Shown here piece after piece: positions 21,424-44,077 of a stretch of DNA of 49,171 nucleotides (positions within the stretch are counted from its first letter, which is position 1; each line of letters begins with the position of its first letter). A program made the translations under genes and the position numbers. The notes under the pieces are model-generated. The model searched no databases. It was not told where the DNA came from and saw only the letters and a program-made list of their open reading frames with translations. The stretch comes from a virus. The stretch is taken from IMG/VR virus record IMGVR_UViG_3300043598_000005, positions 1-49,171 of that record; one strand, written 5' to 3'.

Positions 21424-21484
21424 GCGGAAGGCGCTCCAGCCGAAGATTAACCTGGGTGCGTACTACCTTCGAAAGAAGAAATGA
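21359..21484 (+). CDS. 41-aa basic peptide overlapping the poly-Lys frame
   Basis: ATG 21359 (WLSTKRGARKRKAKSVLQPT and a RRKALQPKINLGAYYLRKKK tail) ends by ATGA overlap with the JAMM gene, which supports it. The ribosome site GGAGG is only 3 nt from the ATG; TTG 21365 would be better spaced. Either this or the 21337 frame, or both, may be translated. Confidence 0.5.
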   Translation: MWLSTKRGARKRKAKSVLQPTRRKALQPKINLGAYYLRKKK

Positions 21485-21912
21485 ATTTTCCGCAGGTGCC
21501 GCCCGAGGTGGCCGGCCAGTTGATCGCGGCTGCCGCGTGCTCACCGCACCGGGAGATCTGCGGCTTCATCACCCACGACTGGCGGATCGTGCCCATCCGC
21601 AACGTGGCCGCCGGGGACCGCTCGTTCGCCATGGATGAGGACGAGTTGATGAAGCTCATGGTGGCTACCGAGGGCCGGTTACTCGGGATCTATCACAGCC
21701 ACCCCGGCGGGGACCCGTACCCATCGGATACCGATGAGACGTTCGCCTACACGCGGTACTACCGCTATTTCATTGTGACCGCGCAGGGATTTTACGAATG
21801 GGATTTCTCTGATGGCAAACCCAAAGCGATCAACGCAGCGGGCCAGCGGTTCGCCGAAGACATGGCTTACCCGTTATTTACAGCTCCAGAGAAAATACGA
21901 CACCACGATTGA
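21481..21912 (+). CDS. JAMM/MPN metalloprotease
   Basis: 143 aa from ATG 21481. JAMM signature: Glu25 (REICGF) and GIYHSHPGGDPYPSDTD with His72, His74, Ser82 and Asp85, which bind a catalytic zinc. JAB1/MPN proteins cut isopeptide or peptide bonds; phage versions occur in tail-tip assembly proteins. Here it is a stand-alone gene next to the MuF-like protein and scaffold, so a capsid-maturation or scaffold-processing role is likely by position. Confidence 0.88.
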   Translation: MNFPQVPPEVAGQLIAAAACSPHREICGFITHDWRIVPIRNVAAGDRSFAMDEDELMKLMVATEGRLLGIYHSHPGGDPYPSDTDETFAYTRYYRYFIVTAQGFYEWDFSDGKPKAINAAGQRFAEDMAYPLFTAPEKIRHHD

Positions 21913-23510: not shown

Positions 23511-23912
23511 GTGGCGCGCTATGACAAATACGATCCATACGACGGAGGCTTTCGAGCCGCACTCGCCGTCGACTGGCTCTCGACAGATCTGGACACGGTG
23601 ATCGGTGTTTCCCTGAACGCATCGGGGAAGCTCGTGAAGGGTACGGCCGGCCAATCCGGACCGTGCGGTGTCGTGGTTCTCACGAAGGCCCACAAGGCGG
23701 GGCACATCGTGGACGTTATGACCGATGGCGAGATCGTGGACTTCACGGTAGCCGGCCGCCCGAGCGTCGCGTTCGCGGCGGCGGTGGCCGGCACCGCGTT
23801 CTACGTGGCCACCACTGGCGCCATCTCCGCCACGAACACGGGGTTCCCGGTCGGTTGGACCGTGGAAGCCGCGCGGCTCGTGGTTCGCTTCGGCCGATCG
23901 GCAGGTGCCTGA
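23511..23912 (+). CDS. Putative capsid decoration / stabilisation protein
   Basis: 133 aa from GTG 23511 (GAGAAAGG site upstream). Beta-rich with many Gly/Ala/Val (SGPCGVVVLTKAHKAGHIVD, FTVAGRPSVAFAAAVAGTA). Position between scaffold and major capsid and its length match head decoration proteins. Confidence 0.75.
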   Translation: MARYDKYDPYDGGFRAALAVDWLSTDLDTVIGVSLNASGKLVKGTAGQSGPCGVVVLTKAHKAGHIVDVMTDGEIVDFTVAGRPSVAFAAAVAGTAFYVATTGAISATNTGFPVGWTVEAARLVVRFGRSAGA

Positions 23913-23913
23913 C

Positions 23914-25221
23914 ATGGAAAAGGTAATCAGCCTGGCCGAATACCACGCCTCCACGGCGAACCCGCTGGTGACCCCCGGCTTCATCCGGGCACCGATGGCG
24001 CTGGAAGCGGCCGAGGGTCACACCTTGGTTGACTGGCGCGAGTACGGGCTCTTCCCGCTCCCGATGGGTGCCGCTGGTGGTTACTCCACCGAGGCGGATG
24101 TCGTTACGCAGACTGCGGACGGCATTGATCTGAATGCAATGTGGGACGAATTCCAGGCCACCCTGAACATCTACAATCAGGGCCGCTCGGCGCTCGTTTC
24201 CATTTTCACATTCCGAGTCACGCAGCTGATCGAGAACGTCCCGCAGGTGGGGGAGAGCGTCTTCGAGGAAGCCTCCGAATTCGGTGTCCCGAAGTCCGTG
24301 CGGCCCGAGCTTGCGTACTTCCAGCTCGCTTACGACTTCAAGGACTACGACCTGGCGACCCGCTACACCTGGAAGTTCCTCCGGGACGCGGACGCGCGGC
24401 AGGTGGAGGCCATCCACGAGCAGGCATTGGGCGGGGACAACCGCCTGATCTTCCGCAAGGTGATGGAAGCCATCTTCGACAAGGCAAACCGGGCGGCGGA
24501 CATCAACCGCCAGAACTACACCGTGTTTGCTTTGTACAACGCGGATGGCACGGTGCCGCCCGCGTACAAGGGGCAGACCTTCTCCGGCTCGCACAGTCAC
24601 TACATGGTTTCCGGTCACACGGTCGTTGACTCCGATGATCTGGAAGACATGTACGACAACATCTCAGAGCACGGCTACGGAATTGAAAACGGTACGACCT
24701 TCGTAGCCCTCATGCAAAAGGATGTCATCCGGGAAATCCGGAAGTGGCGAGTGGGCCAGGACACCGGAGACGATGGCGCGGGCGGCGGTACCGCCGTGGC
24801 GAACTTCGATTTCATTCCGGCTCCGAACCAGCCCGCGCTGATCGTGCCGAACGCGGACGGTCTGCTGGGCAGCCAGCCGCCGACCACGTGGAACGGCCTG
24901 CCGGTGATCGGCAGCTACGCCGGCATCCTGATCGTGGAGGAGGCTTACGTCCCGCCGGGCTACATACTGATGCTCGGCACCGGGGGCGCGGGTAACCTTC
25001 AGAACCCGGTCGGACTGCGTGAGCACGCCAACGCGCAGTACCAAGGGCTCCGGCTCATTCCGGGCAATCAGCAACGGTACCCGCTGATTGATTCCTTCTA
25101 CTCCCGAGGCTTCGGCACCGGGATCCGGCAGCGCGGCGGCGCGGTGGTTATGCAATTGACCACCAATGGGACCTACACCACTCCGCCGCAGTACGCCAAC
25201 AACGGGGACCTCTCGGCATGA
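23914..25221 (+). CDS. Major capsid protein
   Basis: 435 aa from ATG 23914 (GTG 23905 is 3 codons upstream). It begins EKVISLAEYHASTANPLVTP and follows scaffold and decoration genes, as HK97-fold capsid proteins do. The acidic helical region (DEFQATLNIYNQGRSALVSI) and beta-rich C-terminal half agree. No obvious protease-processed N-terminal domain beyond the first 80 residues. It should be the most abundant virion protein. Confidence 0.88.
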   Translation: MEKVISLAEYHASTANPLVTPGFIRAPMALEAAEGHTLVDWREYGLFPLPMGAAGGYSTEADVVTQTADGIDLNAMWDEFQATLNIYNQGRSALVSIFTFRVTQLIENVPQVGESVFEEASEFGVPKSVRPELAYFQLAYDFKDYDLATRYTWKFLRDADARQVEAIHEQALGGDNRLIFRKVMEAIFDKANRAADINRQNYTVFALYNADGTVPPAYKGQTFSGSHSHYMVSGHTVVDSDDLEDMYDNISEHGYGIENGTTFVALMQKDVIREIRKWRVGQDTGDDGAGGGTAVANFDFIPAPNQPALIVPNADGLLGSQPPTTWNGLPVIGSYAGILIVEEAYVPPGYILMLGTGGAGNLQNPVGLREHANAQYQGLRLIPGNQQRYPLIDSFYSRGFGTGIRQRGGAVVMQLTTNGTYTTPPQYANNGDLSA

Positions 25222-25541
25222 GCCGGCAGGTAAGCCGGACGGGCCCGTGGACAGAGGAGGACGTGGCGTACATGCGCTCGCGCCCGACTCGGTTCGCGGC
25301 CCAGCTGCGGCAGGTGGACGAAGGGCCTACGCCCGATCGTCCAGGTCCGCCAGAGAACGAGCCGGAAGGCGCGCTGGTGGAGAACAACCCCGAGGTGAAC
25401 GGGCGGGACGATATCGAGTACGTGGACGGTCTTAACGTGAGCCAAATCAAGGATGAGCTTCGAAAGAAGGGGCTCCCCACCACGGGCAACCGCGCGGATT
25501 TGGAAAACAGACTGTTGGACGCTCTCGCGGCCGACGACTAG
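25218..25541 (+). CDS. SAP-domain head protein
   Basis: 107 aa, ATGA-coupled to the capsid gene. The C-terminal 35 residues (LNVSQIKDELRKKGLPTTGN then RADLENRLLDAL) fit a SAP motif, a two-helix DNA-binding module. SAP domains are found in actinophage head-tail connectors. The N-terminal half is charged and probably disordered. Confidence 0.82.
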   Translation: MSRQVSRTGPWTEEDVAYMRSRPTRFAAQLRQVDEGPTPDRPGPPENEPEGALVENNPEVNGRDDIEYVDGLNVSQIKDELRKKGLPTTGNRADLENRLLDALAADD

Positions 25542-25555
25542 GACCGTTCTACCTG

Positions 25556-25593
25556 GAGCCGGCCGGCTCGCACCGACACGAGTCGGCCGGCTC
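25556..25593 (+). terminator. Long hairpin after the capsid module
   Basis: GAGCCGGCCG (25556-25565) pairs perfectly with CGGCCGGCTC (25584-25593), with an inner CTCG/CGAG pair. It is followed by TACCACTCGG instead of a T run. A near-identical element lies at 44518-44553. Confidence 0.6.
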
Positions 25594-25617
25594 TACCACT
25601 CGGTAAAGGAAGCTCCC

Positions 25618-26103
25618 ATGGCGATACTGGCCGGCGTCTATGGCCCGACTGGAATGGAATACCCAGACGGGCGGCATGCGATCGGGATCTATGTACCCGT
25701 TTTCAACGCGGGTACGGACGACCTGGCGACCCTCTACGTCAACGCACAGAAGACTGGACTGGCTCCAAATCCGGTCACCACGGACGCGTTGGGGAACCTG
25801 ACTTTCTTTGCCGTGCCCGGCAATTATGAATTGGAATTTGACCCGGAGCTGGACCGCATCCCGGTCTATGTTGGGCTGAACGGCAACGAGCCGGTGGCTG
25901 ATATCGAGCCGATGTCGTATCAACACACCCAGTCTATTCCAGCGTCCGAGTGGGATTGCCCTTATCCATTGGGTTTCAAACCGTCCGGGATCGTCGTGCT
26001 CGTGAGCGGCAACGGACACACGCTAGTGCCAATTAGCTACGGTGACGGGCGGATCTTCGTGCATCACGGTGCCCCGTGTACCGGGACAGTGGAGATGAGT
26101 TAG
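25618..26103 (+). CDS. Fibre-type protein (161 aa)
   Basis: ATG 25618 has AAAGGAAG upstream. The N-terminal domain (GVYGPTGMEYPDGRHAIGIY) and the C-terminal domain (SIPASEWDCPYPLGFKPSGI then PCTGTVEMS) resemble conserved terminal segments of phage fibres. It is the first gene of a four-gene fibre cassette placed directly after the capsid genes, so it may attach the others to the head. Confidence 0.7.
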   Translation: MAILAGVYGPTGMEYPDGRHAIGIYVPVFNAGTDDLATLYVNAQKTGLAPNPVTTDALGNLTFFAVPGNYELEFDPELDRIPVYVGLNGNEPVADIEPMSYQHTQSIPASEWDCPYPLGFKPSGIVVLVSGNGHTLVPISYGDGRIFVHHGAPCTGTVEMS

Positions 26104-26105
26104 CA

Positions 26106-27245
26106 ATGGTTGACTACCCATGGGGCAATAACCAGGACGCTCGCGGCTATGAGCTGAAGCAATTCAAATTGTGGGAGGTCAACGGCTTCCCCACTCCGAG
26201 TGGCCCGCTTACCGGCGTCATCGCGCGGAACACGGTCAACGGTCAGATTGCGGTGTGCGACGGCTCGGCGTGGACGCTGGTCGCCACCGATTCGCCAACC
26301 CTCGAAGGCCACGCGGCGGCGTACTTCCAAGACTTGGCGAACATCCCGAACGGCAACCTGGCCGCCGCGCGGGTGTCCGGGCTCCAGGCGGTGATCAACG
26401 CAACCAAGCTGAACGCGCTCACCGCGCCGGACGCGGACGTGGATTTCAACAGCCACTCTCCGACCGGACTCCGCGCGGCTAGCGCGAGCACGGACGCGGT
26501 ACGGAAGTCCGATCTGGACGCGGTGGCGGTCATTGCCAATGCCGCCGCCGCCGGGGTGTCCTACAAGAACCCTGTCCGCGCGGTGAGTACCACGAACCTC
26601 ACTCTCTCCGGCACCCAAACCGTGGACACAGTGGTCCTGGTGGACGGGGATCGCATCCTGGTGGCCGGCCAGACCGCCGGAGCGGCTAACGGGCTCTACG
26701 TGGTGCACAGCGGTGCGTGGACTCGCACGAGTGACGCGGACACGAATGGCGAACTCGCGCCCGGCACGCAGGTGGTGGTCAACGAGGGTACCAACGGGGA
26801 CCAGCCCTGGTACCTGACGGCGGACGCGGCGATCACCATCGGCACCACCGTGCAGGTGTGGAACAAGCTTCCGTTCCCCACTGGCGAGATCGGTGTAGCC
26901 GGGGCCGGCATGACGAAGTCCGGCAGCACCTACGACGTGGGCGCCACGGTGGGCGGTCTCATCACGGTGGGGGCCGACTCGATCGGGCTCACCCGGGGCA
27001 CCGCCGGCACGAAGCGGGCGGCGGCATACCAGGAGTTCGACATCACGGGGGCCGGCTCGGGCACGGTGGACCTGGCGCACGGCTTCGGCTATCAGTGGGT
27101 GTCCGTGAAGGTCTACGAACTGGTCACCGGCACGTGGTCCGAGATCGGCGGCATCGGGGTGGAGCCCTACTCCACCTCCAATTGCCGGCTCTACTTTGGA
27201 TTCACTCCGCTGGACGGAACCATCAAGGTTTGCGTGACGGGCTGA
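26106..27245 (+). CDS. Fibre protein (379 aa)
   Basis: ATG 26106. An N-terminal anchor (MVDYPWGNNQDARGYELKQF), a coiled coil (AYFQDLANIPNGNLAAARVS), Gly/Ala/Thr-rich beta repeats and a C-terminal domain (FGYQWVSVKVYELVTGTW) with the layout of phage fibres. Trimeric by analogy. Part of the capsid-proximal fibre cassette. Confidence 0.78.
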   Translation: MVDYPWGNNQDARGYELKQFKLWEVNGFPTPSGPLTGVIARNTVNGQIAVCDGSAWTLVATDSPTLEGHAAAYFQDLANIPNGNLAAARVSGLQAVINATKLNALTAPDADVDFNSHSPTGLRAASASTDAVRKSDLDAVAVIANAAAAGVSYKNPVRAVSTTNLTLSGTQTVDTVVLVDGDRILVAGQTAGAANGLYVVHSGAWTRTSDADTNGELAPGTQVVVNEGTNGDQPWYLTADAAITIGTTVQVWNKLPFPTGEIGVAGAGMTKSGSTYDVGATVGGLITVGADSIGLTRGTAGTKRAAAYQEFDITGAGSGTVDLAHGFGYQWVSVKVYELVTGTWSEIGGIGVEPYSTSNCRLYFGFTPLDGTIKVCVTG

Positions 27246-27248
27246 CCC

Positions 27249-27731
27249 ATGGTTGAACTCCTGCACCGGGGCCCAGTGCCTAGCGCATCGAATGCGTTCA
27301 GGCGGAAGGACGACGCGCCCCCGACGCACTCCCACGCGGAGAGCGACGTAACCAGCCTGGTTTCCGACCTGGCCGGCAAGTCTCCCACGAGCCACTCGCA
27401 CACCGGGCTCACGTGGTCGGATCGAGTGGTGATCCTCACCGATGCCACTTCCATCACGCCGAACGCGCAGAGCGGATTGGTGGCTGCCTTCCGGTGGAAT
27501 ATGGCGGCGGCTTCCACCCTCATTGCCCCGACGAACCCCGGGGAATTACAAATCATTCGTGTTGCGGTGAAGCCAGCCAGCGCGTTGAACCTCATCCTCT
27601 CCGGCTTCATCGGCTCCAGCGACTACGCCACCGGCACCATTGCCTTGACGAGTGGTAAGTGGACCACGTTTGTTTTCCAATACATCGGTGACATCGGTTG
27701 GCAGTGGACCGGTAAGAGCGTGAGCGCTTAA
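27249..27731 (+). CDS. Fibre or adaptor protein with H-S-H motifs
   Basis: 160 aa from ATG 27249. Contains PTHSHAESDVTSLVSDLAGK and TSHSHTGLTW, two His-rich segments typical of phage fibre trimerisation stalks, then a beta-rich C-terminal domain (ATGTIALTSGKWTTFVFQYI). It overlaps the lyase gene by TAATG. Probably links fibre and lyase. Confidence 0.74.
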   Translation: MVELLHRGPVPSASNAFRRKDDAPPTHSHAESDVTSLVSDLAGKSPTSHSHTGLTWSDRVVILTDATSITPNAQSGLVAAFRWNMAAASTLIAPTNPGELQIIRVAVKPASALNLILSGFIGSSDYATGTIALTSGKWTTFVFQYIGDIGWQWTGKSVSA

Positions 27732-29329
27732 TGGCCACGGCGGGCAGCATCCTCAACATTGGCTCCGGCTCCGGCCAGAACCATTTCAATCTGGGCGTTG
27801 CCCGCGATGGCGACGGGTCGATTACCACTAAGACCCAAGCCGAACTGGTCACCTACGACGAGAGCCCGTACTTTTCACTGGACGACACCGGGGTCTGGAC
27901 GAATTTCGCTGTCCGGCTGGATGGGGTCACCACCGAGGGCTCCACCTATCCCCGGTCCGAGCTGCGTGAGCTGGACACGGACGGCACCACGCTCTACGGG
28001 TTCAATCCGACCACCGGTGACCACTGGATGCAGGGCCGCACGATCATTGACACGCTAGCCGCTTGGAAGCGCGCGATGGTGATCGGGCAGCTCCACGACA
28101 CGATTTCCGATGTCATCATGATTGCATCGCAAAACGTGGAGCCGAGCCCGTACGTAGTCGGCGGAGACACGAAGATCGTGGTTCGGATCAACGGCGGGGC
28201 CGGCTCGGGCGGGCTATCCCTCACCGCTATCCCGCTATACATCCCGGGCACTCAGATCCCCTGGAAGATCCGAACCGGCTCGATCGGTTGGGAGGTCTAC
28301 ATCGGAGACCTCACCACGCCGATGTTCAAATCTTCCGACCCGGGTATGCAAGCGCTTGCGGCTAGCGGGCTCTGCTACCACAAGGCTGGATGCTATTCCA
28401 ATACAAACGCCACGGTAGAAGCCGGTGCCCCGCTCGGCAACGGTAGCCCGAGCACCTTCCACGTGAAGTGCCGACTCCGGGACCTGAAGCACTGGCACAC
28501 CTCCTGGCCTACCCCGCAGGTGATGACCAGCGGCACGAACTTCACCCCGGGTACTGGCGTGATCGGAACGCCTCGGTTCGGTGCCAAATTGGTTTCACTT
28601 AATACCGGAGGCGACGGAGTCACCCCGTTGATTTTCACTCCGGCGTGGCCAACGACACTGCCGGATCCGGGGGACTTGGTAGCGTGCATCATTTGGACCT
28701 GGCGCGCTTCAGTGAGTGCGCCATCTACTCCCAGCATTGCTTCCGGTTGGACCAGTTTGGTAAGCGATTCTCTGCTCGCGGTAGCGCACGGCATGCGCAA
28801 CCGGATCTACTACACCCGATACACCGCTGGCATGGCCGCACCGGGGGTCAGCTATAGCGCAAACACCGACTCCGATGTCGTGGCGGCGCAATTGCTTTGC
28901 GTTCCGGGTGCGTGGTCTTCTGGCGACCCAACCGATCAGATCACCGCCGCGCTCACCGCGTCGGCCGCAAACAGTACAACGGTGATCGGTCCGGCTCCCG
29001 CGCTGGGCAGCCAGGCTCCAGCCGGATCGGTCGTTCTTGCCCTGATCGGGCACGAGTACCCCCGCCCGTCCGGCACGGTCACCACGGTCACCGGCACGGA
29101 CACCCCGGCGCGCACCTACACGGAAGTCCTGGAGCACATCGGCACTTCACCGGCCGGCCCGACCCTGGCGCACGACTGGGCACCCATGCCAGCGGCAACC
29201 ACGGTGGTGGCCAAGCAAGCCACTGGCACCGCCGGGACAACCGGTAAGGGTTTCGGCCGGATGTGGTCCATCAAGCCCGAGCCGCCGCTCACACACGGAA
29301 TCATCAACGCCTGCGCGGGGAGTAGCTGA
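27731..29329 (+). CDS. PL7-like polysaccharide lyase fused to a beta-rich tail
   Basis: 532 aa. Residues 40-250 carry the PL7 (alginate lyase-type jelly roll) boxes in order: YPRSELREL (Arg75), GQLHD (Gln120, His122) and CYHKAGCY (Tyr216), the positions of the Arg, Gln, His and Tyr catalytic residues of PL7. The C-terminal half is a separate beta-rich domain, perhaps for attachment or binding. It should cleave an acidic polysaccharide by beta-elimination; substrate is unknown. It sits in a fibre cassette after the capsid gene. Confidence 0.8.
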   Translation: MATAGSILNIGSGSGQNHFNLGVARDGDGSITTKTQAELVTYDESPYFSLDDTGVWTNFAVRLDGVTTEGSTYPRSELRELDTDGTTLYGFNPTTGDHWMQGRTIIDTLAAWKRAMVIGQLHDTISDVIMIASQNVEPSPYVVGGDTKIVVRINGGAGSGGLSLTAIPLYIPGTQIPWKIRTGSIGWEVYIGDLTTPMFKSSDPGMQALAASGLCYHKAGCYSNTNATVEAGAPLGNGSPSTFHVKCRLRDLKHWHTSWPTPQVMTSGTNFTPGTGVIGTPRFGAKLVSLNTGGDGVTPLIFTPAWPTTLPDPGDLVACIIWTWRASVSAPSTPSIASGWTSLVSDSLLAVAHGMRNRIYYTRYTAGMAAPGVSYSANTDSDVVAAQLLCVPGAWSSGDPTDQITAALTASAANSTTVIGPAPALGSQAPAGSVVLALIGHEYPRPSGTVTTVTGTDTPARTYTEVLEHIGTSPAGPTLAHDWAPMPAATTVVAKQATGTAGTTGKGFGRMWSIKPEPPLTHGIINACAGSS

Positions 29330-29655
29330 TGGCAGACACGGTGAACGACGTCCGGGATAAAATTGAAACCGACGCGGAGAGCCACGGTTGGGATGACGAC
29401 AAGATCACTGCCTATCTCGGGGACGGCAAGACCGCGAACCGGATAGCCGCGATCTATTGGAATCGGCGCGCGCAGGAAACCCTGTACCTGGTGAACGTCT
29501 CCGAGAGCGGTAGCTCACGCTCGCTCGATCAGGTCTATCCGCGCATGGTGGAGATGGCCAACATGTACACCCGGCTAGCCGATGCCGAGGATGACAGCGG
29601 CCCGTCCGAGACCTCCACGCGCTTCGTGCGCTCGCACCCGATCGAGCGGCTGTAG
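29329..29655 (+). CDS. Head-tail connector protein
   Basis: 108 aa, TGATGG-coupled to the lyase gene. Helical with KIETDAESHGWDDDKITAYL and YWNRRAQETLYLVNVSESG. Length and place match head-tail connector or completion proteins. No firm family assignment. Confidence 0.75.
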   Translation: MADTVNDVRDKIETDAESHGWDDDKITAYLGDGKTANRIAAIYWNRRAQETLYLVNVSESGSSRSLDQVYPRMVEMANMYTRLADAEDDSGPSETSTRFVRSHPIERL

Positions 29656-29657
29656 CC

Positions 29658-30101
29658 ATGGCCGGGCTGAACATCCCGATCCCCACGACGCCGGCAGAGC
29701 CCACTACGGCTACGCCGAACACCGAGCTACTCATCCAGCGCAAGATCACCCACGCCTTCATCCGCGCCGAGCCAGTGGACCTCGGGCTAAGCCGCCGCGC
29801 GGAGACCCGGACCCCGGGCGGGGGAGTGGATCGGAACTTCGTCCGGCAGCTCCCCACGCAGACTTTCAAAATCATCATGATCTCCCCGGCCGGAGGCTCG
29901 ATCGAGCAACGCGCGGAGGACGGCACCGAGCGGCGGACAGACTTCGTGCTGCTCGGCGAGTGGAACGCGGACGTTGCGATCGGGGACTACTGGGATGACT
30001 CCACCGGCCAACGGTGGGAGATCCAATCACTCATTCCGTACAACGGCTATGAGGTCCGGGCCAACGTAGCGAGCTACGGAAGGCGGCCCCTCGGTGGCTA
30101 A
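29658..30101 (+). CDS. Head closure / connector protein
   Basis: 147 aa from ATG 29658. A beta-rich domain (TFKIIMISPAGGSIEQRAED, FVLLGEWNADVAIGDYW) preceded by a Pro/Thr-rich segment. Position between the connector and tail-completion genes suggests a head-closure protein (SPP1 gp16-like), an inference from order. Confidence 0.75.
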   Translation: MAGLNIPIPTTPAEPTTATPNTELLIQRKITHAFIRAEPVDLGLSRRAETRTPGGGVDRNFVRQLPTQTFKIIMISPAGGSIEQRAEDGTERRTDFVLLGEWNADVAIGDYWDDSTGQRWEIQSLIPYNGYEVRANVASYGRRPLGG

Positions 30102-30447
30102 CAAAGGGATTGATTTCACTCAGATGATTGCCCGGCTGGACCGGCTGGAGCAACTCACCCCGCGAGCCATCCGAGGCGGCACCGCGCTCACGGCGGCCAA
30201 CGCAACCGCGCACATGAAGACCGAGGCCCCGTGGACCGACCGGACCGGCGCGGCCCGCTCGGGGGTGCTGGCCAGCGACACCTCCACCGGAGACGAGTTT
30301 TCAATTCTGCTCGCGCACGCGGTCAAGTACGGGATCTGGCTGGAGCTTATGCAAGCCGGCCGGTTCTCCATCGTAACCCCCACCATCAAGTGGGCCGCCG
30401 ACGAACTCCAGCAATTTATCAATGGTCTGTGGGGGAAGATCAAATGA
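30094..30447 (+). CDS. HK97 gp10-like tail completion protein
   Basis: 117 aa from GTG 30094, overlapping the previous gene. The motif order TAANATAHMKTEAPWTDRTG, FSILLAHAVKYGIWLELMQA and IKWAADELQQFINGLW is typical of gp10-like minor tail (completion) proteins. It joins the connector to the tail tube. Confidence 0.85.
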   Translation: MANKGIDFTQMIARLDRLEQLTPRAIRGGTALTAANATAHMKTEAPWTDRTGAARSGVLASDTSTGDEFSILLAHAVKYGIWLELMQAGRFSIVTPTIKWAADELQQFINGLWGKIK

Positions 30448-30851
30448 GCGCGCGCCACGCGGTGTACTCGCTGCTCGCGGAGGATCCGGTCCTGGTCCAG
30501 GACTTTGAATTGGGGCCGGACCGGATCTGGGCTACGTATGCAATCGACGCGTTGCCGCGCACCGGGTACACCCTGGTAATCCGGTGGGGAAATCATCCTT
30601 TTGAAATCGAAACTCACGGGCCGCAAGACTTGTCCGTGTGGTGCTACCGCTCGCTGGATGCCGGCCGGGATTACGCCGGCCACCTGCGGATCCTGGAGCG
30701 GGTGATATACCTACTTACCAACACAATTGGACGGGAAGGCGAGGACGGATATTTGAACCAAGCGTTTGCAAATGGAATGAGCGATGACTTCGTGGACGAG
30801 GTCTACGGCGCTACCGCCATGAACGCATCGTTCACCGTCCTCGCACGATAA
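30444..30851 (+). CDS. Tail terminator protein
   Basis: 135 aa, ATG 30444 (ATGA overlap). Contains YTLVIRWGNHPFEI, LSVWCYRSLDAGRDYAGHLR and a late QAFANGMSDDFVDEVYG, which fit the fold and order of tail terminator proteins. It caps the tail tube. Confidence 0.8.
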   Translation: MSARHAVYSLLAEDPVLVQDFELGPDRIWATYAIDALPRTGYTLVIRWGNHPFEIETHGPQDLSVWCYRSLDAGRDYAGHLRILERVIYLLTNTIGREGEDGYLNQAFANGMSDDFVDEVYGATAMNASFTVLAR

Positions 30852-30878
30852 GATTAATTACCCCGAGAGGAGTTGGAA

Positions 30879-31100
30879 ATGGCAGACCCGAAGGCGCAGG
30901 TAGTTTACAAGGGAATCGCAACCCGACGCACCATTTCGGCGGAAGAGTTCAAGGCGGCCGGCGTGGACGGACAGAAGGCGGTGGAGTGGACGAAGGCGGG
31001 CGGGAACACCCTGGACGCGGACGCTCTTTCGCCGGAGGCGCTAGCGCTACTGGCCAAGGACAAGGAGTTCGTGGTTCCCAAGAAGACTCAGACGTCCTAG
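30879..31100 (+). CDS. Small tail-module protein (73 aa)
   Basis: ATG 30879 has AGAGGAG upstream (TTG 30873 is less likely). The sequence YKGIATRRTISAEEFKAAGV and ALLAKDKEFVVPKKTQTS looks like a small structural or adaptor protein similar to connectors that precede the tail tube gene in actinophages. Function uncertain. Confidence 0.7.
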   Translation: MADPKAQVVYKGIATRRTISAEEFKAAGVDGQKAVEWTKAGGNTLDADALSPEALALLAKDKEFVVPKKTQTS

Positions 31101-31291
31101 AACTCCGCTGTCCGCGTGGATTGCTTTTCGGCCGGCTACTGGACCAGAACACGCTAGAGGTCAAGTGCAGATCGGAACTATGCGGCGGAGGGCGGGGCCG
31201 GGTGGTACTCCACGATTTCGATTTGAAATCCGGGGAGATCATCCGGACTAGGCGATTCAAGAACCCAACAGAGGTAAGGAAGGTGAAATGA
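30986..31291 (+). CDS. Com-like zinc-ribbon protein, start uncertain
   Basis: The functional part is LELRCPRGLLFGRLLDQN followed by KCRSELCGGG and VVLHDFDLKSGEIIRTRRFK, which matches the Mu Com/Com-like zinc-ribbon family. No ATG, GTG or TTG lies between the stop of the previous gene (31100) and the first Cys; GTG 30986, inside the previous gene in another frame, is the only canonical option. A non-canonical start or -1 frameshift is possible; no good slippery site is seen. Confidence 0.7.
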   Translation: MDEGGREHPGRGRSFAGGASATGQGQGVRGSQEDSDVLELRCPRGLLFGRLLDQNTLEVKCRSELCGGGRGRVVLHDFDLKSGEIIRTRRFKNPTEVRKVK

Positions 31292-31863
31292 CAGCGCCAC
31301 TTGAAACCGCGTTGCCATATGGCCTACGGGATATCAAAGTCACCCCGTACACCGACGCAACCGGCACTGTCCTGGACGATGCGGACGATGCTTCGATCGA
31401 CTTGCCCAACGCGCGGACTCTGTCGTTCTCCGAAGCGGAGGACTTCGAAGAGCTGCGCGGAGACGACCGGACGGTGACCACCCGTGGTAAGGGTGCCACT
31501 GTCGAGTGGGAAATCGAGTCCGGCGGCATCTCGCTGGAAGCCTGGCAGGTGATGACCGGCGGAGAGATCATTGACTCCGGCATCGCGGGCGCGCGCAAGC
31601 GGGTACTTCGCAAGCGCGGCAGCCAGGCCCGGCCGTGGTTCCGCATGGAGGGTCAGGCCATCTCGGACTCCGGCGGTGACATCCACTGCGTGCTCTACAG
31701 GTGCCGGTTCACGGACAACCTGGAAGGCGAGCTGGGCGACGGAGAGTTCTTCCTGACCTCGGGCAAGGGCACCGCGCTGCCGATGCTGGATGAGGCGGCG
31801 GACATCCTGTACGACTTCGTACAGAACGAGGTTGCAACCGCAATCCCGACAACCCCTGTGTAA
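31288..31863 (+). CDS. Major tail tube protein
   Basis: 191 aa, ATG 31288 (ATGA overlap). The beta-rich layout (LPYGLRDIKVTPYTDATGTV, GATVEWEIESGGISLEAWQV, GDIHCVLYRCRFTDN) and the position just before the assembly chaperones identify the tail tube protein of siphophages. Confidence 0.87.
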   Translation: MTAPLETALPYGLRDIKVTPYTDATGTVLDDADDASIDLPNARTLSFSEAEDFEELRGDDRTVTTRGKGATVEWEIESGGISLEAWQVMTGGEIIDSGIAGARKRVLRKRGSQARPWFRMEGQAISDSGGDIHCVLYRCRFTDNLEGELGDGEFFLTSGKGTALPMLDEAADILYDFVQNEVATAIPTTPV

Positions 31864-31894
31864 TTTCAAACGGAAAGGGCTAAGGAGCACAGAG

Positions 31895-32470
31895 ATGCCA
31901 AGCCACAATGAAAGCAAGTACACCCCGTCCGTATGGGGGACCCGGTCTCTCCGCGATTTCAAAACCCCCTCGGGTCAGCTGTGTCAGATCCGGCTGGTTT
32001 CGGTGGAGACCCTGGCGGCCGATGGCTACCTGGACCAATTGGACTTGCTCACCAATAAGGTAGCAACGGATGTAGTGGGTCCGGCGCAGGGCAAGCGCCC
32101 GCAGGACCACCAGAAAAAGCAACCCACGAAGGCGGAGATTGCCGCCGCGCAGAGCAACCCCAAGATCTTTGGCTTGTTCGACAAGGTGGCGGACATCGTA
32201 CCGATGATGGCCATGGTCAATAAGGTAGTAGCTTACATCGTGGTCCAGCCGGAAATTCGCATTGCATTCCACGAGGACGGGTCTCCGCTCGCGCACGACG
32301 ACCGGGAAGAGGGCGTGGTCTACGCGGACACCATCTCCATGGAGGACCGGTTCGCCATCTTCCAGACCTCCATCGGGGAGATGGGTGAGCTGTCGACCTT
32401 TCGTAAGAAGTCCAAAAAGACTGTGGGAGACGTGGAGGATGGCGGAGGCGTACCACCGGACTCCGAGTGA
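31895..32470 (+). CDS. Tail assembly chaperone (G-like)
   Basis: 191 aa from ATG 31895 (TAAGGAG site upstream). Helical, acidic and basic segments with a central tail-chaperone-like region (NPKIFGLFDKVADIVPMMAM, RFAIFQTSIGEMGELSTFR). Its end overlaps, out of frame, the second chaperone reading frame. Such pairs help tape measure folding and are usually joined by a programmed frameshift. Confidence 0.82.
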   Translation: MPSHNESKYTPSVWGTRSLRDFKTPSGQLCQIRLVSVETLAADGYLDQLDLLTNKVATDVVGPAQGKRPQDHQKKQPTKAEIAAAQSNPKIFGLFDKVADIVPMMAMVNKVVAYIVVQPEIRIAFHEDGSPLAHDDREEGVVYADTISMEDRFAIFQTSIGEMGELSTFRKKSKKTVGDVEDGGGVPPDSE

Positions 32471-43051: not shown

Positions 43052-43524
43052 CCGAAGACATCCTCTCCAATACCGCGATCACGGGCCCGGCGGCGTTCGC
43101 GCTAGGTATCCTCGGATTCCTTTTGAAAGCGTATCTGGACTACCGCAAGGACAAGCGAGAAGGCGACAGCGCGGAGCAGACCGCGAACGCCAACATCGTG
43201 GAAACCACTTCCAAACTCAATCAACTAGTCCGAGAACACATGGAGTCGCAGGACGCGCAGTACAAGCGGGAGCGGAGGCTGCGGCTATCCCTGGAGCGGG
43301 AGAACGAAGAGCTACGTAGGCAAATCAATGGAGAAGAAAATGCCAGTGAGAAACCGAAGGGGGAAGCAAGAGAACCCGCAACCTCCGGAGCCGGACCAGA
43401 ATCTCCTTACGGCCGAGTACGCCCAACCGCTGGTGATGGGGAGCGACGGGGGCGCCATACCCTTACCGATCCAGCAAGAGGCGGAGAAGCTCTTCCACCA
43501 GGCGCAGGGCTCGGTTACACGTGA
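43048..43524 (+). CDS. Single-helix coiled-coil protein (158 aa)
   Basis: ATG 43048 (ATGA overlap). An N-terminal membrane helix (GPAAFALGILGFLLKAYL), then a long charged coiled coil (TTSKLNQLVREHMESQDAQY, RERRLRLSLERENEELRRQI). This resembles Rz/i-spanin architecture but lies upstream of the collagen-like gene. The last 197 nt overlap that gene in another frame. Confidence 0.72.
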   Translation: MTEDILSNTAITGPAAFALGILGFLLKAYLDYRKDKREGDSAEQTANANIVETTSKLNQLVREHMESQDAQYKRERRLRLSLERENEELRRQINGEENASEKPKGEAREPATSGAGPESPYGRVRPTAGDGERRGRHTLTDPARGGEALPPGAGLGYT

Positions 43525-44077
43525 GACCTCGGACCGGAGTAAGCGGCAGGACCGGCGTAAAAAGCAAATCTTTCTCGCGCTCATTTTACTTGCCATCATC
43601 GGCTCATACATTTTCACTTACTTCGTAGCGCAGCGGGAAGGCGGACGGGCGGCCAAGCTGGAGCTATTGGAGGGCTCGGTGGCCAGCCTGGAGGCTTCGA
43701 ACGCCACCCGCAAGGAGCAGGGGCTCCCGCCAATCCCACAGGTAATCGTGACCAACCCGCAGCGGGTCAACACGCAACAGGTGATCGACTCGGTGACTAC
43801 CGCCGTGATCGCGCAGATTGCCACCGATCCGAGGTTCCGGGGCCCGAGCGGGCAGGGCATCCAGGGCGTGCAGGGTATCCCCGGTGAGAAGGGTGCGGCC
43901 GGGGACAAGGGCATCCAGGGCGAACAGGGTATTCAGGGCTCGAAGGGCGACCAGGGTATCCCGGGTATTCAGGGTCCGCAGGGCGACCAGGGATTACAAG
44001 GCATTCCCGGCGAGAAGGGAGACAAGGGAGACAAGGGAGACAAGGGAGATTCCGGGGGAATCATCGGGACCGGGTAA
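43328..44077 (+). CDS. Membrane-anchored collagen-like protein
   Basis: 249 aa (ATG 43328; ATG 43340 has a GGAGAA site). An N-terminal cytoplasmic part, a membrane helix (QIFLALILLAIIGSYIFTYF) near residue 80, a coiled coil, then uninterrupted Gly-X-Y triplets from about nt 43841 to the end (GIQGVQGIPGEKG and GDKGDKGDKGD). Collagen-like domains are common in phage fibres. As a membrane protein made late, it may be a virion fibre before assembly or a host-surface protein. Confidence 0.82.
   Translation: MEKKMPVRNRRGKQENPQPPEPDQNLLTAEYAQPLVMGSDGGAIPLPIQQEAEKLFHQAQGSVTRETSDRSKRQDRRKKQIFLALILLAIIGSYIFTYFVAQREGGRAAKLELLEGSVASLEASNATRKEQGLPPIPQVIVTNPQRVNTQQVIDSVTTAVIAQIATDPRFRGPSGQGIQGVQGIPGEKGAAGDKGIQGEQGIQGSKGDQGIPGIQGPQGDQGLQGIPGEKGDKGDKGDKGDSGGIIGTG
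43841..44056 (+). repeat. Collagen-like Gly-X-Y repeat
   Basis: About 24 triplets, with GEKG, GDKG, GIQG and GIPG units; includes a nearly exact GACAAGGGA repeat at the end (44031-44048), which may vary in copy number. Confidence 0.85.

Follow-up and report, generated by a model that had tools for sequence, protein, structure and literature searches.

A fibre cassette with a PL7-family lyase in a facultative slot between the head and connector genes of a siphovirus-type phage: a possible neck fibre

The uncultured phage represented by IMG/VR record IMGVR_UViG_3300043598_000005, whose 49,171 bases are called the window here, carries a cassette of three fibre-type genes (F1, F2 and F3) and one PL7-family lyase gene; it is bordered on the left by the genes for the major capsid protein (MCP) and a SAP-domain protein, and on the right by those for two head-tail connector-type proteins, HTC1 and HTC2 (Table 1). 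This gene order had been read from the sequence in the original prediction, and coordinates and profile matches agree with it. The junctions are tight, with gaps of 2 bp (F1/F2) and 3 bp (F2/F3) and one-base overlaps between F3 and the lyase and between the lyase and HTC1; the cassette thus forms part of a structural operon that continues into HTC1, and gene order and junctions give an anchor-stalk-tip layout in one presumed transcriptional unit. For F2, the start was placed at the ATG at 26106 and not at the mechanically called GTG at 26076, on the basis of the starts of the homologs in loci L060 and L045 of the local comparison set and of the sequence preceding the start. The surrounding late region is of siphovirus type (terminase, portal, MCP, major tail protein, tape measure, tail proteins, endolysin). 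MCP relatives were found by tblastn in 152 phage records; since these phages infect Mycobacterium, Gordonia, Microbacterium, Nocardia and other actinobacteria, the host of the window phage is likely actinobacterial as well.

Table 1. Genes and features of the cassette and its borders in the window.
Feature	Coordinates	Strand	Evidence
MCP (major capsid protein)	23905..25221	+	phrog_3990 major head protein, 4e-165
SAP-domain protein, left slot border	25218..25541	+	PF02037, 1.9e-11
Strong RNA hairpin, two GAGYCGGCCGGCTC blocks, just after SAP	25554..25595	+	z -3.2 vs 200 shuffles
F1, putative fibre anchor	25618..26103	+	ATG start agrees with homologs
F2, putative stalk/fibre protein	26106..27245	+	phrog_2647 'head decoration', 2.6e-61
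F3, short fibre protein	27249..27731	+	weak phage tail repeat (PTR), PF12789, E 0.023
PL7-family lyase	27731..29329	+	PF08787, 5.6e-13
HTC1, head-tail connector-type protein, right slot border	29329..29655	+	phrog_5274, 1.3e-19
HTC2, stopper-type protein	29658..30101	+	phrog_4904, 2.3e-31; homolog in Wojtek annotated head-to-tail stopper

The lyase combines a catalytic domain (approximately residues 17-260) with a C-terminal part of about 270 amino acids. PF08787 (Alginate_lyase2) covers residues 22-231 at 49.7 bits, against a curated cut-off of 29.7, and a phmmer search of the PDB returned nine sequences, all of them alginate lyases or AlyQ, with AlgAT5 as the best match (4.4e-16). The AlphaFold2 (AF2) model of the catalytic domain, with predicted local distance difference test (pLDDT) values mostly of 70-95, has the beta-jelly-roll fold of PL7; in Foldseek it matched 1uai at 1.1e-14 (TM-score 0.82 by target length), and rows 1-44 of the result were alginate or glucuronan lyases. 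Fold and catalytic boxes are common to the window lyase and the alginate lyases AlgAT5 (5ZQI) and that of Corynebacterium (1UAI); these two are bacterial enzymes, whereas the window lyase has an extra C-terminal part and its gene belongs to the structural operon of a phage. Since the fold matches also include a PL7 beta-glucuronan lyase (7nde), the substrate is not necessarily alginate.

The Arg, Gln-x-His and Tyr-x-Lys boxes are catalytic in the PL7 family. Aligned with 15 other PL7 domains, most of which have the same residues, the lyase retains R75, Q120-x-H122 and Y216, as the original prediction had claimed for the Arg, Gln-x-His and Tyr boxes, and in addition K218; to judge from these residues it looks catalytically complete. 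A PL7-fold lectin that binds polysaccharide and no longer cuts it is an improbable alternative in view of the retention of all of these residues, even though, shortly past the Tyr-Lys box, Asn in the window takes the place of a Gln present in several relatives, and although decay of PL7 domains does happen: the Gln-x-His box is lost in the PL7 domain of phage locus L108 (L108:7328-11407), which is possibly a non-catalytic, lectin-like domain, and Tyr is lost in L108 and in L112. In a single tail-region protein of the latter locus (L112:8579-11569), a Chondroitinase B match (PF14592, 2.7e-38) is combined with PL7 (1e-20) and with a weak match to a laminin-G-like domain, so that one tail protein of a phage apparently carries two folds of polyuronate lyases; L107 has a similar, weaker arrangement.

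For the C-terminal part of approximately 270 residues, no family was found in Pfam or NCBIfam, nor through a trained profile; in NCBIfam, F1, F2, F3 and the lyase as a whole also had no matches. An apparent similarity of residues 264-532 to the tip proteins of other slots (L058: BLAST against nine proteins with no composition correction, 24.7% over 227 amino acids, E 9e-7) was dropped, as hhalign gave a P of 0.022, the trained profile did not recover it among 4931 open reading frames (ORFs) at E 10, and AF2 modelled this part mostly below pLDDT 50.

Searching with an alignment of PL7 domains yielded 53 pattern matches, which led to 23 further IMG/VR loci. The domains closest to that of the window occur in L106 and L118 (38%), and two from Streptomyces are more distant (24-27%); since the phage domains are the nearer ones, the comparison hints at an origin of the lyase by exchange among phages. 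A full-length lyase search of plasmid records gave a single match, in Streptomyces, and a Streptomyces PL7 used as query found no match in 50,697 phage records; at the sensitivity used, no PL7 was detected in phage records. Twenty of the 23 PL7 loci were inspected and eight proteins, from eight loci, were profiled, six of them as tape measure candidates; all six candidates were confirmed, and in each case the lyase is encoded downstream of the tape measure, in a tail-region protein or gene cluster. The position of the window lyase, which the original prediction had called unusual for a phage depolymerase, is therefore unusual in comparison with these six PL7 phages, and also with passages of a 2017 review that describe depolymerases almost only from tail fibres and tailspikes, the one described exception being a pre-neck appendage (PMC5380687). 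That a phage has an alginate lyase is no novelty as such, since the same passages cite such enzymes from Pseudomonas and Azotobacter phages (PMC5380687); among the open-licence PMC papers searched, none came up that places a PL7 lyase on a fibre of the neck or head.

The predicted attachment of the cassette to the virion depends on F1, which consists of an N-terminal beta domain (approximately residues 1-90) and a second beta domain (approximately 97-161), modelled by AF2 at pLDDT 80. Fourteen further loci of the local set share the conserved N-terminal module; in every one it is encoded among the head genes, in nine after SAP and in five after HTC1. In VIA-align, the best match of F1 was the Pan3 tail complex (9vyg_o; Z 8.3, root-mean-square deviation [rmsd] 2.6, 77 residues aligned), and the tailspike head-binding domain of Pam1 (7eeq_A) matched at Z 7.2 (rmsd 4.4, 85 aligned); five P22 tailspike head-binding entries (1lkt with Z 6.3, 9jg6, 8u10, 2vnl and 2xc1) matched at Z 5.8-6.3, so that this kind of protein accounts for seven of the first 12 rows. 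Lower matches included the neck of P74-26 (9oab; Z 5.2, rmsd 13.1) and the neck fibre of A-1(L) (8keg; Z 4.8). An F1 profile compared with the PDB found as its best match the Pam1 'Tailspike head-binding domain', weakly (E 0.13), and the matches among the predicted viral structures of BFVD included pectate-lyase-type proteins and an EPS-depolymerase (E 8e-6 and weaker). Among phage records, F1 was found in one, that of the cultured Nocardia phage P3.1, whose F1-type cassette has a tip other than PL7; a narrow F1 alignment search gave 24 pattern matches and two relatives (L014 and L027), on contigs already in the set.

The original prediction had likened the cassette to the head fibre of phi29, whose gene follows the capsid gene. 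The position beside the capsid gene holds, since the window cassette follows MCP and SAP; the attachment to the capsid hull is less well supported, since F1 best resembles the head-binding and neck anchors of Pan3, Pam1 and P22. In Andhra, according to parts of the published description, the fibre binds capsid hexamers via a beta-prism and a coiled coil and has a receptor-binding-type C-terminal domain (PMC9710869), whereas the F1 matches did not retrieve such anchors; no hull head fibre of the phi29 or Andhra kind appeared among the listed F1 fold matches, an absence that is not proof. A fibre whose F1 or F2 binds capsid hexamers, in phi29 or Andhra style or as a many-copy decoration, and which carries the lyase on the capsid surface is on this evidence unlikely, although the directly preceding MCP and SAP genes would suit it and a capsid-borne, sugar-active enzyme has a precedent in principle. 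In the sections available of the HFTV1 study, a polysaccharide-active enzyme is proposed on a head structure and off the tail, namely a deacetylase-like domain on turrets of MCP hexamers; the virus is archaeal, however, and the proteins are unrelated (PMC12494034).

F2 bears on the same question. Residues 12-347 align to positions 5-299 of the 336-position phrog_2647 profile, a family named 'head decoration' in PHROGs, and the corresponding proteins of cyanophage PSS2 and phage Phabba are called 'capsid decoration protein', which would agree with a hull fibre; yet these names, that of phrog_2647 included, rest on annotation, and the PSS2 'decoration' gene adjoins fibre and tape measure genes. 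The Myrna accessory protein, as identified in an excerpt of the Myrna report, is gp98, encoded upstream of MCP, and is not the phrog_2647 protein (PMC7150772). By tblastn, F2 has relatives in 101 phage records; alone as query in viral_contigs, it had no match. F2 relatives adjoin F1 in six loci (L038, L045, L060, L068, L084 and L091). Enzymes beside head genes and F2-type fibres occur in other lineages too: in Curtobacterium phage Sunfish, a GDSL esterase directly follows an F2-type protein in the head-adaptor region (L002:9669-10886), and in Rhodococcus phage E3 an SGNH hydrolase and a cutinase lie just after MCP, near F2-type fibres (L130:2225-4967). F3 is the weakest-supported gene of the cassette, with profile relatives in five loci (L008, L037, L039, L042 and, weakly, L045).

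The place of the cassette was compared across relatives by collecting MCP-bearing loci and searching each with SAP, HTC1 and HTC2 profiles. After exclusion of 20 of the 100 loci (duplicates, near-duplicates and one truncated MCP), 80 were kept, of which nine were without a scorable slot. Among the 71 scored loci, the slot between SAP and the connectors was empty in 49, held an F1-type anchor set in 15, and contained other inserts in seven; three of the rows counted as empty (L030, L051 and L077) show no HTC2, so that an insert after HTC1 could be missed there. On the MCP tree, these states require at least eight changes between anchor and empty, and at least 11 between filled and empty, which indicates that fibre sets were gained and lost repeatedly; the slot is a facultative cargo place. 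The nearest kin by MCP, L008 (76%) and L009 (74%), carry collagen-like or repeat-rich fibres in the same slot, and their fibre cassettes begin with different small, anchor-like proteins (L008:11597-11917 and L009:11695-12012). The anchor set itself follows HTC1 in five loci, in four of them between HTC1 and HTC2 (L068, L078, L084 and L085) and in L091 with HTC2 out of view. A scan of genome_contigs with the MCP alignment gave 132 pattern matches, none of which was confirmed, and no prophage.

The tips of these cassettes differ as well. In L014, the anchor cassette ends in a pectate-lyase-type protein (PF12708, 1.4e-13), and in L060 in a protein with a GDSL-like motif recognized by eye, without a Pfam match; L036 and L086, which are without the anchor, have GDSL-like matches below the Pfam cut-off. 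All fully visible anchor cassettes of the relatives likewise close with a separate gene at this position, coding for roughly 200 amino acids or more, to which L003 adds a 64-amino-acid ORF. This regularity, together with the one-base overlaps of the lyase gene with F3 and HTC1 inside the structural operon, makes it very improbable that the lyase is a soluble late product which leaves the cell at lysis and frees the progeny from exopolysaccharide without being part of the virion; the absence of a fusion with F3, from which the lyase gene is separate, is what such an enzyme would have in its favor.

The hairpin just after SAP marks the left border of the slot in most relatives, with unrelated sequences and in filled and empty slots alike. 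A z of -3 or below was obtained in 12 of 14 anchor rows, six of seven rows with other inserts, 26 of 48 empty rows and two of four unscored rows (seven of the 80 rows were untestable), against four of 73 control stretches inside MCP; the hairpin is missing mainly where SAP abuts HTC1. Some copies resemble intrinsic terminators, and the structure may act as an attenuator that lowers the expression of all genes after MCP and SAP. A cassette expressed at a lower level than MCP, which would fit this hairpin, would speak against the hull-attached fibre.

Taken together, we give about even chances to the reading that F1, F2, F3 and the lyase form one neck-anchored virion fibre with a polyuronate-cutting PL7 tip, carried as optional cargo. 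Through its beta domain of the tailspike head-binding or neck-fibre type, F1 would anchor the fibre, most likely at the head-tail junction (the neck, or portal vertex); F2 and F3 would form the stalk of a presumably trimeric structure, and the lyase its distal enzymatic part, cutting a polyuronate by beta-elimination. Candidate substrates are alginate, glucuronan or a uronic-acid-rich exopolysaccharide, and, before its tail tip engages, the particle might be held by such a sugar layer and move through it. The cassette would be dispensable, the same slot being empty in most relatives and filled with differently tipped fibres in others. Thus, the head-borne lyase fibre of the original prediction survives as a fibre cassette with a complete-looking PL7 enzyme, and its location points to the neck or portal vertex no less than to the hull; the structural models favor, and do not prove, the neck over the hull or the tail.

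The closest working model for such a device would be the neck fibre of A-1(L). In the portions of its description considered here, gp82, gp81 and gp80 assemble as anchor, stalk and tip from three proteins of one operon, and the likeness to the window extends to a pilin-like, N-terminal beta-domain anchor and a distal carbohydrate module (PMC10966104). The two also differ: A-1(L) belongs to the myophages, its fibre ends in a binding module and not in a lyase, and the numbers of the fibre genes, gp80-82, are remote from those of the neck genes, gp5 and gp7 (PMC10966104); the fold match of its anchor to F1 is also weak, as given above. Among tailspikes, those of P22, Pam1 and Pan3 have a beta head-binding domain that joins the spike to the neck or tail-machine region, as the predicted fibre would. 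P22 is a podophage, and its tailspike unites anchor and enzyme in one polypeptide; the window, in contrast, has separate anchor, stalk and lyase genes in a siphovirus-type genome, and a PL7 domain in place of a beta-helix.

Several observations weigh against a neck fibre of this kind. The Z-scores of F1 reach at most 8.3, close to the 7-8 that the tool gives as background where a model has no clear match, and pilin and CnaB domains score nearly as high as the head-binding domains. The homolog set was sampled around MCP, which biases it toward head-region locations. The C-terminal half of the lyase, with AF2 pLDDT mostly below 50, has no confident model, and the full-length lyase found no relative in phages, viral_contigs or genome_contigs. 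For A-1(L), the available passages report that the sugar-binding tip did not bind the host (PMC10966104). Finally, the F1 fold also occurs in siphophage spikes, in Pantoea phages Vid5 and AAS21, so that the fold does not fix the place of attachment, and in phages Clawz and Yvonnetastic F2-type proteins are encoded behind tail and lysis genes, remote from the head genes. These last two points would also suit a receptor-binding fibre or spike that sits on the tail and is merely encoded near the head genes, and so would a stalk type of the slot (beginning MSL..ITxLATRI..) that recurs in a tail-region gene of the PL7 phage L115. We regard a tail-tip location as rather unlikely, however: the 49 scored relatives without a cassette must nevertheless infect, and the cassette is consequently not what the lineage basically depends on for receptor binding; moreover, the window has tail genes of its own following the tape measure protein.

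Beyond the window, the comparison suggests that the tail tip is not the only place for sugar-cutting fibres in this lineage, whose phages can carry them at the head or neck as well. More specifically, and with a likelihood that we put somewhat short of even, a large lineage of actinobacterial siphoviruses may use a hairpin-marked slot between head and neck genes to swap whole fibre sets with sugar-active or sugar-binding tips (PL7 lyase, pectate-lyase fold, GDSL-type esterase and others), and thus possess, at the neck or head, a second enzyme platform that does not depend on the tail. If this is true, enzymes against sugar barriers can travel on an additional device that is exchangeable and separate from the tail tip; such enzymes could be found at a defined genome place by synteny and not by sequence similarity, and display experiments with laboratory actinophages would have in the slot a natural place for insertions.

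The genomic surroundings are consistent with the assignment of the slot borders. SAP profile homologs occur in 96 loci of the local set, and the genes after HTC1 have homologs in Nocardia phage P3.1 and Gordonia phage Wojtek that are annotated as stopper, minor capsid and tail terminator proteins; this synteny with stopper and terminator genes also backs the identity of HTC1. The region 23511-32470 is without a near DNA match among the 50,697 phage records. Elsewhere in the window, a gene at 21481-21912, between the portal and MCP genes, matches in position an M67-type metallopeptidase of P3.1 and a metalloprotease of Wojtek, and a collagen-like protein, with a hydrophobic stretch preceding its GXY repeats, is encoded at 43328-44077, upstream of the endolysin gene.

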